A stretch of 48,288 nt of DNA from Granulosicoccus sp. (GTDB taxonomy: Bacteria; Pseudomonadota; Gammaproteobacteria; Granulosicoccales; Granulosicoccaceae): NCBI GenBank assembly GCA_023301795.1, contig JALZVU010000044.1, positions 1 through 48,288 on the forward strand. Reading direction: 5' to 3'. Shown here piece by piece: positions 39,470 to 43,897 of the stretch. Below the pieces are notes generated by a model that made no database searches, was not told the origin of the DNA, and saw nothing but the letters and a program-made list of their open reading frames with translations. Positions within the stretch are counted from its first letter, which is position 1, and every line of letters begins with the position of its first letter. Position numbers and translations under genes: made by a program.

Positions 39470-39487
39470 GTGATCTTGAGTTCCCAA

Positions 39488-40322
39488 AGATATATTTGTA
39501 CGTCAGCATGCAACCGCGGACAGCCCTGTCGGGTAGCTGTTTAAAGAATACCGGAAAGGCAAACGACAGTGTCAGAGGTGTCAGTGCAGCAGGACGAAGG
39601 GGATAATTCCACGGTAGATGTCGGCTAGTTGTGCCTGTAATGGGCAAACGCCATTCAGGCAGTACTGCGCAGATCCGACGGGTGGAGTCGGTAACAAGGT
39701 TTGGAGGATTAATGCCACGAGCCATGCCGAACTCAGGCACCACACGTTTACTAACGGGTTCTAAATCTGGAATACCAGATTTACGATCATTCACGAAAAA
39801 TTGGGTGAGTGATAACACAATCAGCGTGGACCCAATCCGGTGGACGACATCGCCAGATAAATGGCAAGTGCCGCGGGCATTAAAGCCAGCTTCACCAACA
39901 ACACTCTTAGTAAACTCATCACCACACAGCTCTCACGGCAACTGCCGAGACACTGTGACGCCCATCAAAATGACAAAGCGTGGAGCTAATGTATTGAGTA
40001 TTGATACAGACCATTCCAATTTTCGCTAAGCGCAGTTTACGGTATTCGAGCACAAGTATCGAGGCACATATGGCCCCTGCGATAGTGCGCTCTCCAACTA
40101 CATAGCCTCACCCGATGTTACACGTTTGAACTCAGATAGTGGAAAGCTGCGGGGGCGTGAGGATACCAGCCTGTTCGAATTTCGTGTTGTAGGAGCACGA
40201 GCTTGTTACTCGAACTCAGTTCACAGATTTCAAGCCTATTTTTCACTGTCAATGCTTTAGCACTGCAACATAATCACCGTATTTGAGGTAATGAAAAAGC
40301 ATGAACAGTGCAATATGAAAAT
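39488..40322. other. Intergenic region between aceE and the phasin operon
   Basis: About 830 bp with no convincing gene. Overlapping frames on both strands near 39462-40029 have no ribosome-binding site, no recognisable family and shadow each other. A minus-strand 32-codon frame (39821-39919) would encode a signal-like MSLLRVLLVKLALMPAALA peptide, but no ribosome-binding site precedes it. A 7-bp hairpin AATCTGG/CCAGATT lies at 39765-39782. The aceE promoter must lie at the left side and phasin control sequences at the right. Confidence 0.4.
40173..40215. repeat. Candidate REP-like intergenic palindromic element
   Basis: GTTCGA (40173-40178) pairs with TCGAAC (40210-40215), and inside it TCGTG (40182-40186) pairs with CACGA (40196-40200), with TTGTAGGAGC between. 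The word GTAGGAGC-x-CGAGCTTG resembles the core of Pseudomonas REP elements. I saw only this copy in the window, so the repeat nature is unproven. Confidence 0.3.
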
Positions 40323-40388
40323 GATTTTAAGAGTGACATTCGGTGATTTAGAGAGTGAGATCTGAAGATTTGGAGAGTGCAATCTGGT
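40323..40388. repeat. Three-unit 22-nt tandem repeat upstream of the first phasin gene
   Basis: Units at 40323-40344, 40345-40366 and 40367-40388 each begin GATTT and contain GAGTG at a fixed place. Units 2 and 3 agree at 17 of 22 positions; units 1 and 2 at 14-15. A further AGTGCAAT at 40307, 25 bases earlier, may be a decayed unit. The 22-nt period is close to two helical turns. Confidence 0.6.
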
Positions 40389-40486
40389 GATATATTGATT
40401 TATAATTCACATATAAAGTATATATCCAGCCACAAACCGTTGTTTTCAGTAATTTCAATAAATTTCTCGTTTATTTTGCCGAAAGA

Positions 40487-40528
40487 TGTTGCAATGCAAA
40501 AACAACGTCTCTATACTGCATTGCAACA
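40487..40528. promoter_or_regulatory. Probable PhaR operator: 12-bp inverted repeat bracketing the phasin promoter
   Basis: TGTTGCAATGCA (40487-40498) and TGCATTGCAACA (40517-40528) are exact reverse complements. Each arm is itself nearly palindromic around TTGCA-W-TGCAA. Known PhaR sites in other proteobacteria are TGC-rich palindromes near phasin promoters. The arms cover the -35 region and the start side of the -10, so binding would block RNA polymerase. The repressor is encoded 1.1 kb downstream. Confidence 0.65.
40489..40517 (+). promoter_or_regulatory. Sigma70-type promoter of the first phasin gene
   Basis: TTGCAA (40489-40494, 4 of 6) and TATACT (40512-40517, 5 of 6) are separated by exactly 17 bases. 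Transcription would start near 40524, leaving a 5' leader of about 65 bases before the ATG at 40591. Confidence 0.6.
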
Positions 40529-40540
40529 AGACGCGAAACG

Positions 40541-40552
40541 TGTCTGCAGACA
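40541..40552. promoter_or_regulatory. Perfect 12-bp palindrome in the phasin leader
   Basis: TGTCTGCAGACA is its own reverse complement and contains the TGCA core also found in the two upstream arms. It lies in the predicted leader, 38 bases before the phasin ATG, as a possible third PhaR contact. Confidence 0.4.
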
Positions 40553-40590
40553 AATTTTTTTAGCCTTCCTACTTTTACGAGATAAATAAC

Positions 40591-40941
40591 ATGCAAAACA
40601 TCATTGACAACATGAACGAGCAATTCAAGCAAATGTTCGACGCTCAATCTGGCGGCCTTGAGCCACTTCGCGCCTTCGCTGCGCTGTCTACAGAAACTGC
40701 CGAACAATTTGCTCGTCATAACTACGCAGTAGCAGGTGACTTTCTGGAATTTGCTACAAAATCTGCCAACCTGCCTTTGTCAGGTGACGATGTGCAGGCA
40801 GTTGCTGCAGCACAAGCCGCAGAAGTAACGTCATTTGCTGAGCTGATGGGTACACGCGCCACTGAGTATTCCGATATGGCTCAGGCTTTCGGCACTAAAG
40901 CACGTGATGTAGCAGAAACTGCAACAGCGTCTTTCAAGTAA
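40591..40941 (+). CDS. phaP: Phasin family protein (first copy)
   Basis: The 116-residue protein is all-helical and amphipathic: FKQMFDAQSGGLEPLRAFAALSTETAEQF, then a repeated TSFAELMGTRATEYSDMAQAF pattern typical of phasin_2-type proteins. No cysteine or signal peptide is present. Phasins coat PHB granules and control their number and size. Its promoter has the PhaR-like inverted repeat, so it should be made when PHB is present to titrate the repressor. It is followed 113 bp later by a second, diverged phasin gene. Confidence 0.86.
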   Translation: MQNIIDNMNEQFKQMFDAQSGGLEPLRAFAALSTETAEQFARHNYAVAGDFLEFATKSANLPLSGDDVQAVAAAQAAEVTSFAELMGTRATEYSDMAQAFGTKARDVAETATASFK

Positions 40942-41054: not shown

Positions 41055-41459
41055 ATGAAAGCAGTTAACGAGCAGTTCAGTGAGCAGTTTGCAGACATGC
41101 AGAAAAAGACCATGGACAGCCTTGCGCCCATGCAGAACATGAACAATGTAGCCGCACAGGCATTCGAGCGCATTGCGCGAAAAAACTACGACCTGATGGG
41201 TGACCTAGTTGAGTACGCTGTTGCTCAAGTCAAGGTACCTGAGGGCGAGACTGACATGCAGAAAGTATATGAGTCTCGCGTTGCAGACACTAAAGCCTTT
41301 GCAGACAAGGTCAATGCACGGGCTGCAGAGTATGTAGAGTTGGCTGGTGAGTTGGGCGATATGGTAAAAGCGACAGCAACTGCCGAGACAGAAGCTGCTG
41401 CTCCTGCGCCGACCGCCAAGAAAGCTGCAGCTAAGAAGCGTACTGCCAAAGCCAAGTAG
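41055..41459 (+). CDS. Phasin family protein with Lys/Ala-rich C-terminal tail (second copy)
   Basis: The 134-residue protein has a phasin helical core (residues 1 to about 100: FADMQKKTMDSLAPMQNMNNVAAQAF, then DTKAFADKVNARAAEYVELAGEL). It closes with a tail APTAKKAAAKKRTAKAK that resembles histone H1-like AAKK repeats. Such tails in PhaF- and PhaM-type granule proteins bind DNA and link granules to the nucleoid. GGAG sits eight bases before the ATG. It is transcribed with the first phasin and lies upstream of phaR. Phasin assignment is good, DNA binding is inferred from the tail. Confidence 0.84.
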   Translation: MKAVNEQFSEQFADMQKKTMDSLAPMQNMNNVAAQAFERIARKNYDLMGDLVEYAVAQVKVPEGETDMQKVYESRVADTKAFADKVNARAAEYVELAGELGDMVKATATAETEAAAPAPTAKKAAAKKRTAKAK

Positions 41460-41573: not shown

Positions 41574-42035
41574 GTGAATCAAACTCGAGTCATCAAGAAG
41601 TACGCTAACAGGCGACTGTACGATACTGTGGCCAGCAAACACGTGACCCTCACCGACATCCGCAAGATGATCGTGGAAGGCATTGATATCAAAATACTCG
41701 AGGATACTTCGGGCGATGACATCACTCGCCCTCTCCTGCTGCAGATAATCTCCGAGCAGGAACAAAACGCCGGCCAGCCCATCTTGACCGAAGTTCTGCT
41801 TGCCCAGCTTATCCGTTTTTATGGAAACCCTATGCAGGGTATGATGGCGCAGTACCTTCAGAAAAGCGTTGGCACCTTTGTTAAGCAACAGGGCTCAGTG
41901 CAAGAACAAATGCAAAGTATGCTCTCCAACACCCCTATTGATACCATGCGCGAGCTCATGGAGCAGAATATCAAGGGTTGGGACTCCGTTTTCAAAGGCG
42001 GCACCACCCGAGACGACAGCAGCAAGGATAAGTAG
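41574..42035 (+). CDS. phaR: PHA synthesis repressor PhaR
   Basis: The 153-residue protein begins with the family's very conserved DNA-binding region: RVIKKYANRRLYDT then SKHVTLTDIRKMIVEG, followed by DITRPLLLQIISEQE. The remaining part binds nascent PHA granules. PhaR represses phasin genes and leaves the operator when polymer forms. The start is GTG. It lies between the phasins and phaC; its most likely operator is the inverted repeat in front of the first phasin gene. Confidence 0.93.
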   Translation: MNQTRVIKKYANRRLYDTVASKHVTLTDIRKMIVEGIDIKILEDTSGDDITRPLLLQIISEQEQNAGQPILTEVLLAQLIRFYGNPMQGMMAQYLQKSVGTFVKQQGSVQEQMQSMLSNTPIDTMRELMEQNIKGWDSVFKGGTTRDDSSKDK

Positions 42036-42088
42036 CCCCCGCCTCCGGCGATGTGGCTGACTATGAGCAATCAAGGCGAGGCGATAAA

Positions 42089-43897
42089 GTGAGCGACAAA
42101 GACAAACCAGTCAACGAACAGATTGAAGAGATGTCCAAGACGATCGTGGACACCTGGCAGCAAAATGCGACCATGATGACGCAGCTGTTCAATCAGTCCC
42201 ATGACCTGCTCACCAAGAACATGGAACCACTAAATATGGATCCATCGAGCATGGACCCAATGAATATCGGTCCAGCGTTCACTGAAGCTAACAAGATCCT
42301 GACCAGCGATCCTATGAAGCTCATGCAGGCTAACTACGAGCTATGGAAAGAGCACGTAGCCCTCATGCAGCAGGCCATGATGGATCTGATGAACAAAGGT
42401 AGTGGTGAGGATACAAAATCATCTGACAAGCGTTTTCGTCATGAAGATTGGACTAACAATCCCATGTTCGACTACATCCGGAAGTCTTATCTGATTACCA
42501 GTAAGTGGATGGTCAGCATGATGTCCTCCATAGAAGGCCTGAGTGAAGCCGACAAGAAAAAGATCGTGTTTCATTCGCAGTTGTTAGCGGATGCATTTTC
42601 ACCGTCGAACTTCTTCATGACGAATCCTGAAGCTTTGCGCACGATGGTAGAGTCGAAAGGTGAGAGCGTACTCAAGGGCATGCAGAACCTGCAGCGAGAC
42701 CTTGACCCCGCCACCAGTCAGCTCAGCATTATGATGTCTGATCCGGACGCCTTTGAGTTGGGCAAAAATATTGCCACCACTCCGGGAAAAATCGTGTTTC
42801 AGAATGAGCTTCTTCAGCTGATTCAGTACGAACCCACGACAGCAAAGGTATACGAGCGGCCGCTGGTTATCGCGCCACCTTGGATCAACAAATATTACAT
42901 CCTCGATTTGCAACCCAAGAACTCTTTCATCGCGTGGGCAGTGGCTCAGGGATACACCGTATTTGTTATCTCGTGGGTCAACCCTGATTCAGCGCTGGGT
43001 GCCAAAACCTTTGAGGACTACATGCAAGAAGGCATTTTGAATGTGCTGGATGTGGTCGAAGATGCTACGGGTGTGTCCGAGGTTTCAATGATCGGGTATT
43101 GCATTGGCGGTACTTTGCTCAGTGCCACGCTAGGGTATATGGCATCAATTGGCGACAACCGAATCAAAGCGGCAACATTCTTTGCATCTCAAGCAGATTT
43201 TTCAGAAGCCGGGGACCTAAAGCTGTTCACTGATGAAGCTCAGGTAGATAATCTTGAACGCATGATGGAGGACAAGGGCTATCTGGAAGGCAAATCCATG
43301 GCGACAACGTTTAACATGTTGCGCTCCAACGATTTGATTTGGTCGTTTTACGTTGATAACTATTTACTTGGCAAAGATCCTCTGAAATTCGATCTGCTTT
43401 ACTGGAATGCCGATTCAACACGTATGCCTCGTGAGACGCATTTATTCTACTTGCGCGAGATGTATATCAATAACAACCTGTCAAAGCCAGGCGGCATAAC
43501 GCTCAAAGGTGTACCCATTGACTTGTCGAAAGTAAAAATCCCCATCTACTTACAGGCGGCGAAAGATGACCATATCGCACCCTATCCTTCAGTGTTCAAA
43601 TCAACGGGTTTGTACAGTGGCCCCGTAAGATTCATGCTGGCAGGATCTGGGCATATCGCTGGTGTTATTAACCCACCAGCGGCTGGAAAATACAATCATT
43701 GGATCAACGAAAAACAACCCAAAGACCTGGACGAGTGGATGGACGGTGCTGAAGAGCACGAGGGTTCCTGGTGGAATGATTGGGACAAGTGGCTATCCAA
43801 AAAATCAGGCAAGAAAGTCAACAAGCGTATCCCAGGCTCCGGCAAGCTGGACGTTATTGAAGATGCACCTGGTACGTACGTGTCGATAAAGAGTTAA
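42089..43897 (+). CDS. phaC: Class I poly(3-hydroxyalkanoate) synthase
   Basis: The 602-residue synthase has the lipase-like box GYCIGG with catalytic C338, D494 in AAKDDHIAPY and H522 in GSGHIAGVINPP, spaced as in Cupriavidus necator PhaC (C319/D480/H508). It polymerises (R)-3-hydroxybutyryl-CoA into PHB at the granule surface. I chose GTG 42089 because GAGG (42078-42081) precedes it by seven bases; the longer GTG start at 42053 has no ribosome-binding site. It sits 53 bp after phaR. The N-terminal Met/Asn/Gln-rich stretch (residues 20-60) is a little longer than usual. Confidence 0.94.
   Translation: MSDKDKPVNEQIEEMSKTIVDTWQQNATMMTQLFNQSHDLLTKNMEPLNMDPSSMDPMNIGPAFTEANKILTSDPMKLMQANYELWKEHVALMQQAMMDLMNKGSGEDTKSSDKRFRHEDWTNNPMFDYIRKSYLITSKWMVSMMSSIEGLSEADKKKIVFHSQLLADAFSPSNFFMTNPEALRTMVESKGESVLKGMQNLQRDLDPATSQLSIMMSDPDAFELGKNIATTPGKIVFQNELLQLIQYEPTTAKVYERPLVIAPPWINKYYILDLQPKNSFIAWAVAQGYTVFVISWVNPDSALGAKTFEDYMQEGILNVLDVVEDATGVSEVSMIGYCIGGTLLSATLGYMASIGDNRIKAATFFASQADFSEAGDLKLFTDEAQVDNLERMMEDKGYLEGKSMATTFNMLRSNDLIWSFYVDNYLLGKDPLKFDLLYWNADSTRMPRETHLFYLREMYINNNLSKPGGITLKGVPIDLSKVKIPIYLQAAKDDHIAPYPSVFKSTGLYSGPVRFMLAGSGHIAGVINPPAAGKYNHWINEKQPKDLDEWMDGAEEHEGSWWNDWDKWLSKKSGKKVNKRIPGSGKLDVIEDAPGTYVSIKS

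Follow-up and report, generated by a model that had tools for sequence, protein, structure and literature searches.

Gene content and promoter of the phasin locus

The window, by which is meant the whole stretch of 48,288 nucleotides analysed here from Granulosicoccus sp., contains a PHA locus with two phasin genes, phaR, and the gene of a class I PHA synthase, phaC (Table 1). The neighbours of the 22-nt repeat array that is the subject of this study are these PHA genes on one side and pyruvate dehydrogenase genes on the other. A single copy of phaR was found in the genome, and no other regulator gene occurs among the phasin, phaR, and phaC genes. Some 760 bases that run from aceE to the phasin control region (39488-40250) hold no recognised gene; the two open reading frames tested there matched no Pfam family. 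Four proteins of the HU/IHF family are encoded in the genome.

Table 1. Genes, repeat units, and control elements at the phasin locus (positions in the window)
Feature	Position	Strand	Remarks
aceE	ends at 39487	-
Intergenic stretch between aceE and phasin gene 1			about 1.1 kb; contains the 22-nt array
Putative distal PhaR dyad	40255..40271	.	CTTTAGCACTGCAACAT; 2 mismatches to the 17-nt YTKNTGCRNYGCANMAR; 231 bp from proximal dyad, centre to centre
Degenerate fourth unit of the earlier note	40301..40322	+	not above background
Repeat unit 1	40323..40344	+	GATTTTAAGAGTGACATTCGGT
Repeat unit 2	40345..40366	+	GATTTAGAGAGTGAGATCTGAA; seen by Tandem Repeats Finder
Repeat unit 3	40367..40388	+	GATTTGGAGAGTGCAATCTGGT; seen by Tandem Repeats Finder
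Degenerate counterpart of TTCACA-N5-TGTGAA	40406..40422	.	left arm only; 3 mismatches at -83
IHF-like site	40433..40445	-	CAAACCGTTGTTT, 1 mismatch; 55 bp from proximal centre (66 in relatives)
Proximal PhaR-type dyad over -35 box	40486..40502	.	1 mismatch to consensus, core perfect
Phasin promoter	40489..40517	+	TTGCAA - 17 - TATACT
Second PhaR-type dyad at presumed transcription start	40513..40529	.	2 mismatches, core perfect
Phasin gene 1	40591..40941	+	Pfam Phasin_2, E 3.7e-07
Second phasin gene	41055-41459
phaR (PHA synthesis repressor)	41574..42035	+	TIGR01848 above cut-off at 41586-41909
Class I PHA synthase gene (phaC)	42053-43897

A consensus scan for sigma-70-like sites performed at chance level (2 found, 1.8 expected), so the phasin promoter is claimed because of its conservation in relatives and not from the scan alone. 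TTGCAnTGCAA lies over the -35 box in 18 of the 20 upstream regions taken from relatives and is followed there by a TATA-like box; the exceptions are L019, which has a looser pattern only, and L032, which has none. The second dyad, counted by eye, is found at the presumed start in 8 of 18 relatives. Judged by the PhaR consensus published for Ralstonia eutropha (YTKNTGCRNYGCANMAR, from the available part of PMC12849132), the dyads over the -35 box and the presumed start are PhaR sites. As expected of a PhaR-controlled phasin promoter, the phaR gene is present and consensus dyads occupy both the -35 box and the presumed transcription start.

Similar arrangements have been described in other bacteria. 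In the phaP1 promoter of R. eutropha, PhaR dyads are likewise found next to the -35 box and at the start of transcription, a layout that its authors likened to the auxiliary operators of LacI, and in phaP3 further dyads are located well upstream, like the distal dyad of the window (PMC12849132, in the part available). The window differs from phaP1 and phaP3, as presented in that part, by the repeat array between its distal and proximal dyads; the fixed IHF-like site and the TTCACA palindrome that characterise the relatives of this strain (see below) are also absent from that part. The YGC-N3-GC core of the window dyads is shared with the PhaR site TGCRNYGCASMA of Bradyrhizobium diazoefficiens (PMC6201568) and with the PhaR site of Sinorhizobium meliloti (PMC12542648). 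These are alphaproteobacterial promoters, and a tandem array is not mentioned in the accessible portions of the two reports.

The 22-nt array and the search for its motif elsewhere

The array consists of three head-to-tail units of exactly 22 nt each at 40323-40388. An earlier note, made from the letters of the sequence, had described three adjacent 22-nt units with GATTT at the start and GAGTG at a fixed position, and this description was borne out: 14 of the 22 columns are invariant across the three units, including GATTT (columns 1-5) and AGAGTG (columns 8-13). The units agree pairwise at 15, 16, and 17 of 22 positions (68-77%), and the clustering of the invariant columns is not significant (run permutation p ~0.10). 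The three-unit score of the array is 26, a value never reached by dinucleotide shuffles of the window (n=100, maximum 20), of the intergenic region (n=400, maximum 18), or of the local 241 nt (n=1000, maximum 18). Tandem Repeats Finder reported 40345-40386 with a period of 22, which corresponds to the last two units. The distance of the array from the phasin promoter had also been given correctly; the last unit ends 100 bases short of the -35 hexamer at 40489, and the intervening stretch (40389-40488), just 3' of the array, is AT-rich with 27% G+C.

Several further interpretations of the repeat were examined and rejected. The possible degenerate fourth unit, placed 25 bases earlier in the earlier note, scores at background: on a profile built from the three units its best score is 5.3 bits, at 40298, a value exceeded at 13 or more unrelated places in the window, with a maximum of 11.9 bits. 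The units are not sites for PhaR, the best-known PHA regulator; their best alignments with YTKNTGCRNYGCANMAR have 6, 7, and 6 mismatches in 17 positions (5 for the putative fourth unit), where at most 3 were required, in agreement with the statement of the earlier note that the motif is not that of a PHA regulator it could name. A coding repeat was dismissed as well: 22 is not a multiple of 3, so the units cannot encode a repeated peptide in one frame, and the 70-aa open frame that overlaps unit 3 in part gave no Pfam match.

Searches for the motif beyond the array gave little. A search of the strain's own genome for the shared blocks, allowing up to one mismatch, recovered every unit of the array exactly and four one-mismatch places, against two places for a reversed control; the only exact matches are the array itself. 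The 22-nt pattern, with up to three mismatches in the 5.78-Mb genome, recovered two units of the array plus three places outside it, compared with 0 in the reversed control, and three extra matches are too few to judge. In a collection of species genomes, a 20-nt pattern with 17 fixed bases had one exact match in each of 14 stretches from unrelated phyla, whereas about 30 are expected by chance in 257 billion bases on both strands; a dispersed motif was rejected, since these matches are no more than chance gives. A search of plasmids with the array returned no match. A repeat scan of 595,683 bases of the strain's own genome, to which each stretch contributed only its top-scoring place for each period, gave further scores of 26 or more either inside open reading frames or in microsatellites whose units are 5-9 nt long. 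Arrays of this microsatellite-like type (GGTTG, GGTAGYG, GAGGTA, and one 9-nt unit) occur at L109:3740, L114:2414, L106:5547, and L112:2597, some of them perhaps in extragenic positions.

The phasin control region in genus relatives

A phasin was found in 11 of the 57 genomes searched, the strain's own included, all belonging to one genus; the phasin of the closest relative is 65% identical, so the comparison reaches genus-level relatives only. From 34 phasin matches, an upstream set of 21 loci was assembled, consisting of the window's own locus and 20 loci from 10 relatives. The set excludes matches for which no locus was retrieved as well as second tandem phasin copies, with the exception of L038, which is nearer to the second phasin than to the first yet was counted. 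L032, which lacks a proximal dyad, was not used for the site counts, and L019, with its looser proximal pattern, entered only the counts of the distal core and the IHF-like site, which gives n=19 for these two and n=18 for the palindrome.

None of the 20 phasin upstream regions from the 10 genus relatives contains a comparable three-unit array. Their repeat scores are 20 or less, except for a score of 28 in L023 that comes from coding sequence at the phasin start; the unit profile, applied to 19 of the relatives' regions, found nothing clearly above shuffles (in each region at least 10 of 100 shuffles were as good). A DNA search with 40240-40440 covered 48 family genomes including the strain's own and gave no array match in the other 47; one 20-base identity to the array region in relative G008 lies within an unrelated reading frame. 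Since many of these family genomes gave no phasin match or were outside the phasin search, the informative comparison is that of the 20 upstream regions from 10 relatives. With 40180-40600 as the query, the alignments to genus relatives were limited to the proximal promoter, a weak stretch of which was also matched in one genome of another family. The earlier note had proposed aligning the orthologous region of relatives and had named, as evidence against its reading, an array that is absent where the promoter is otherwise conserved; this is the pattern found in the 10 genus relatives, the closest of which has a phasin of 65% identity.

Further upstream, the relatives share a layout of their own. 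In 15 of 19 promoters, the centres of the proximal dyad and of an upstream PhaR-type core are 139-145 bp apart, against a background rate of 0.0038 per position; L015 has none in that range, L018 and L019 have one at 122 and 123 bp, respectively, and L021 has a two-mismatch match at 138 bp. The shift in L018 and L019, from about 143 to 122-123 bp, amounts to approximately two helical turns. Two further elements, whose distances were noticed on the very sequences in which they were later counted, are an IHF-like site (YAANNNNYTGATW, found with one mismatch or none exactly 66 bp upstream of the proximal centre in 14 of 19 relatives) and the palindrome TTCACA-N5-TGTGAA (at -88/-89 from the proximal dyad with at most two mismatches in 13 of 18 relatives). 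IHF-like matches were called with the IHF consensus. For the 66-bp position, shuffled controls gave a mean of 0.67 and a maximum of 4 of 20 promoters, the window included. The IHF-like site is in the opposite orientation at 54 bp in L010 and L011 and is missing there in L017, L018, and L019; the palindrome is carried by L012, L013, L015-L017, L020-L023, L029-L031, and L033 and is missing at -88/-89 in L010, L011, L014, L018, and L038. These counts are neither independent nor blind: the relatives' loci share ancestry, some genomes contribute more than one paralogue, and the sites were first spotted in the sequences used for counting. The fixed distance of the IHF-like site suggests a DNA bend between PhaR operators.

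In the window, the array sits where relatives keep the distal core: the position 143 bp upstream falls within unit 2. There is no PhaR-type core with at most one mismatch at 130-155 bp in the window, and the only one upstream is at 231 bp; since about one such core is expected by chance in the 260 positions scanned, this distal dyad may be accidental. Compared with the relatives, the extra length of the window is 88 bp when measured by the proximal dyad, about 94 bp by TTCACA, and 99 bp by the IHF-like site. That 88 equals exactly four repeat lengths (4 x 22) was not relied on, because the other landmarks give 94 and 99 and three units are supported. Two IHF-like sequences with one mismatch each were also observed at 40380-40392, overlapping unit 3, and at 40388-40400, which are 108 and 100 bp, respectively, from the proximal dyad.

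Origin and possible role of the array

The explanation preferred here, with a probability of roughly 0.55, is that the array is a lineage-specific, minisatellite-like tandem duplication that lengthened the spacing of the PhaR operators and then diverged. Intergenic minisatellites and imperfect tandem duplications occur in bacterial promoters; the array in the window resembles them in its head-to-tail arrangement in non-coding, AT-rich DNA and in its apparent confinement to one lineage. The copies in the window are head to tail beyond chance and, among genus-level relatives, restricted to this lineage; what the sequences show are three units that the relatives examined lack and a conserved arrangement of the elements surrounding them. 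The poor fit of the units to PhaR and the lack of significant clustering among their invariant columns also favour a duplication. Unlike the minisatellites of bacterial promoters, the array has only three units with identities of 68-77%, so active slipping is unlikely. Against this explanation, the columns shared by all units, GATTT and AGAGTG among them, could reflect selection on the units.

Under the duplication model, a short tandem duplication would have arisen in the control region of a PhaR-controlled phasin gene and diverged afterwards. In the ancestor, some 143 bp may have separated the distal PhaR-type operator from the one at the -35 box, and growth of the repeat together with neighbouring sequence would have pushed the distal operator out to 231 bp; the extra length of the window exceeds the 66 bp of three units by every landmark, and duplication alone is thus insufficient. 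PhaR would silence the promoter mainly via the two proximal dyads, at the -35 box and the transcription start, and would leave them upon granule formation. Repression by PhaR through proximal dyads has been reported for phaP1 in R. eutropha (PMC12849132, available part). The array, if active at all, may function as a spacer that weakens or retunes the contact between distal and proximal PhaR.

Other readings of the array give the units themselves a function. They may be an operator array for an activator, such as one of the AraC type, whose contact with RNA polymerase would take place at the phasin promoter or at a nearer one that escaped detection. AraC-type half-sites are direct repeats about 21 bp apart, and the array shares with AraC-type operators direct repeats at a pitch near 21-22 bp and a position upstream of a promoter. 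The earlier note had argued that this spacing puts all units on one face of the DNA, as in activator arrays; the geometry stands, 22 bp being close to two helical turns, but positive support for the activator itself was not found. The invariant GATTT and AGAGTG and the other elements of the surrounding control region, which keep their position across the genus, would fit such a reading. Proteins other than PhaR do bind phasin promoters: in R. eutropha an XRE-type repressor and H-NS-like proteins, the latter by pull-down, were found with phasin or depolymerase promoters, and the XRE-type protein binds a phasin promoter (PMC11332829, in the part available). However, exact matches to the shared blocks in the strain's own genome are limited to the array, the invariant columns are not significantly blocked, and the consensus scan gave no sigma-70-like site in the interval from the array to the known promoter. 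Unlike AraC-type operators, the array has no adjoining regulator gene, phaR being the sole one among the phasin, phaR, and phaC genes, and no recognised half-site motif; it is neither conserved in the orthologous promoters of genus-level relatives nor reused in the genome. A dedicated activator probably does not bind the units, and the operator reading as a whole is considered rather unlikely.

The degenerate state of the palindrome in the window leads to a related idea, in which the units took over the role of TTCACA-N5-TGTGAA and a factor switched from the palindrome to the repeats. The presence of the palindrome at -88/-89 in most relatives, compared with three mismatches at -83 in the window, is consistent with such a replacement; yet L010, L011, and L014 are also without the palindrome there and have no array, and the profile search of the 19 relatives' regions speaks against it as well, which leaves a replacement quite improbable. 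A phased operator array for an undescribed factor, which took over phasin control after decay of the palindrome and acts with an IHF-assisted PhaR loop, is judged improbable. Alternatively, the array and its downstream edge might be the landing place of a bending protein of the HU/IHF family that replaces the IHF-like site of the relatives, as the two IHF-like matches at this edge and the four HU/IHF-family proteins of the genome would allow; units 1 and 2 have no IHF-like match within the scanned range, however, a one-mismatch site is still present at 55 bp, and the motif is short and degenerate and lies in AT-rich DNA. Such a landing place is highly improbable. With its 22-nt direct repeats and the AT-rich stretch behind them, the array bears a superficial resemblance to plasmid- or phage-type iterons, but it has no plasmid match, and the adjoining genes are aceE, the phasin genes, phaR, and phaC rather than replication genes, with no replication initiator among the selected open reading frames scanned nearby; a plasmid iteron array was rejected on these grounds. 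An RNA element was rejected too, because all Rfam families were away from the cut-off and folding was ordinary (z -0.68 and +1.56). That the array represents iterons, a decayed mobile element, or a structured RNA is scarcely credible.

A search of the open-access literature, at the level of titles and the beginnings of abstracts, for phasin promoters with direct repeats and for PhaR with IHF showed nothing on this architecture among the papers listed, and one for the geometry of AraC direct repeats yielded no papers. The array itself is probably of little importance and of less interest than the fixed layout of the promoter. The phasin promoters of this genus keep a fixed spacing of the -35 dyad, the IHF-like site at 66 bp, the palindrome at about -89, and the distal core at about 143 bp, which suggests a looped repression or activation complex at the genes for the coat of the PHA granule. 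The window offers a natural variant whose loop seems to differ in length, and so allows the loop idea to be tested.
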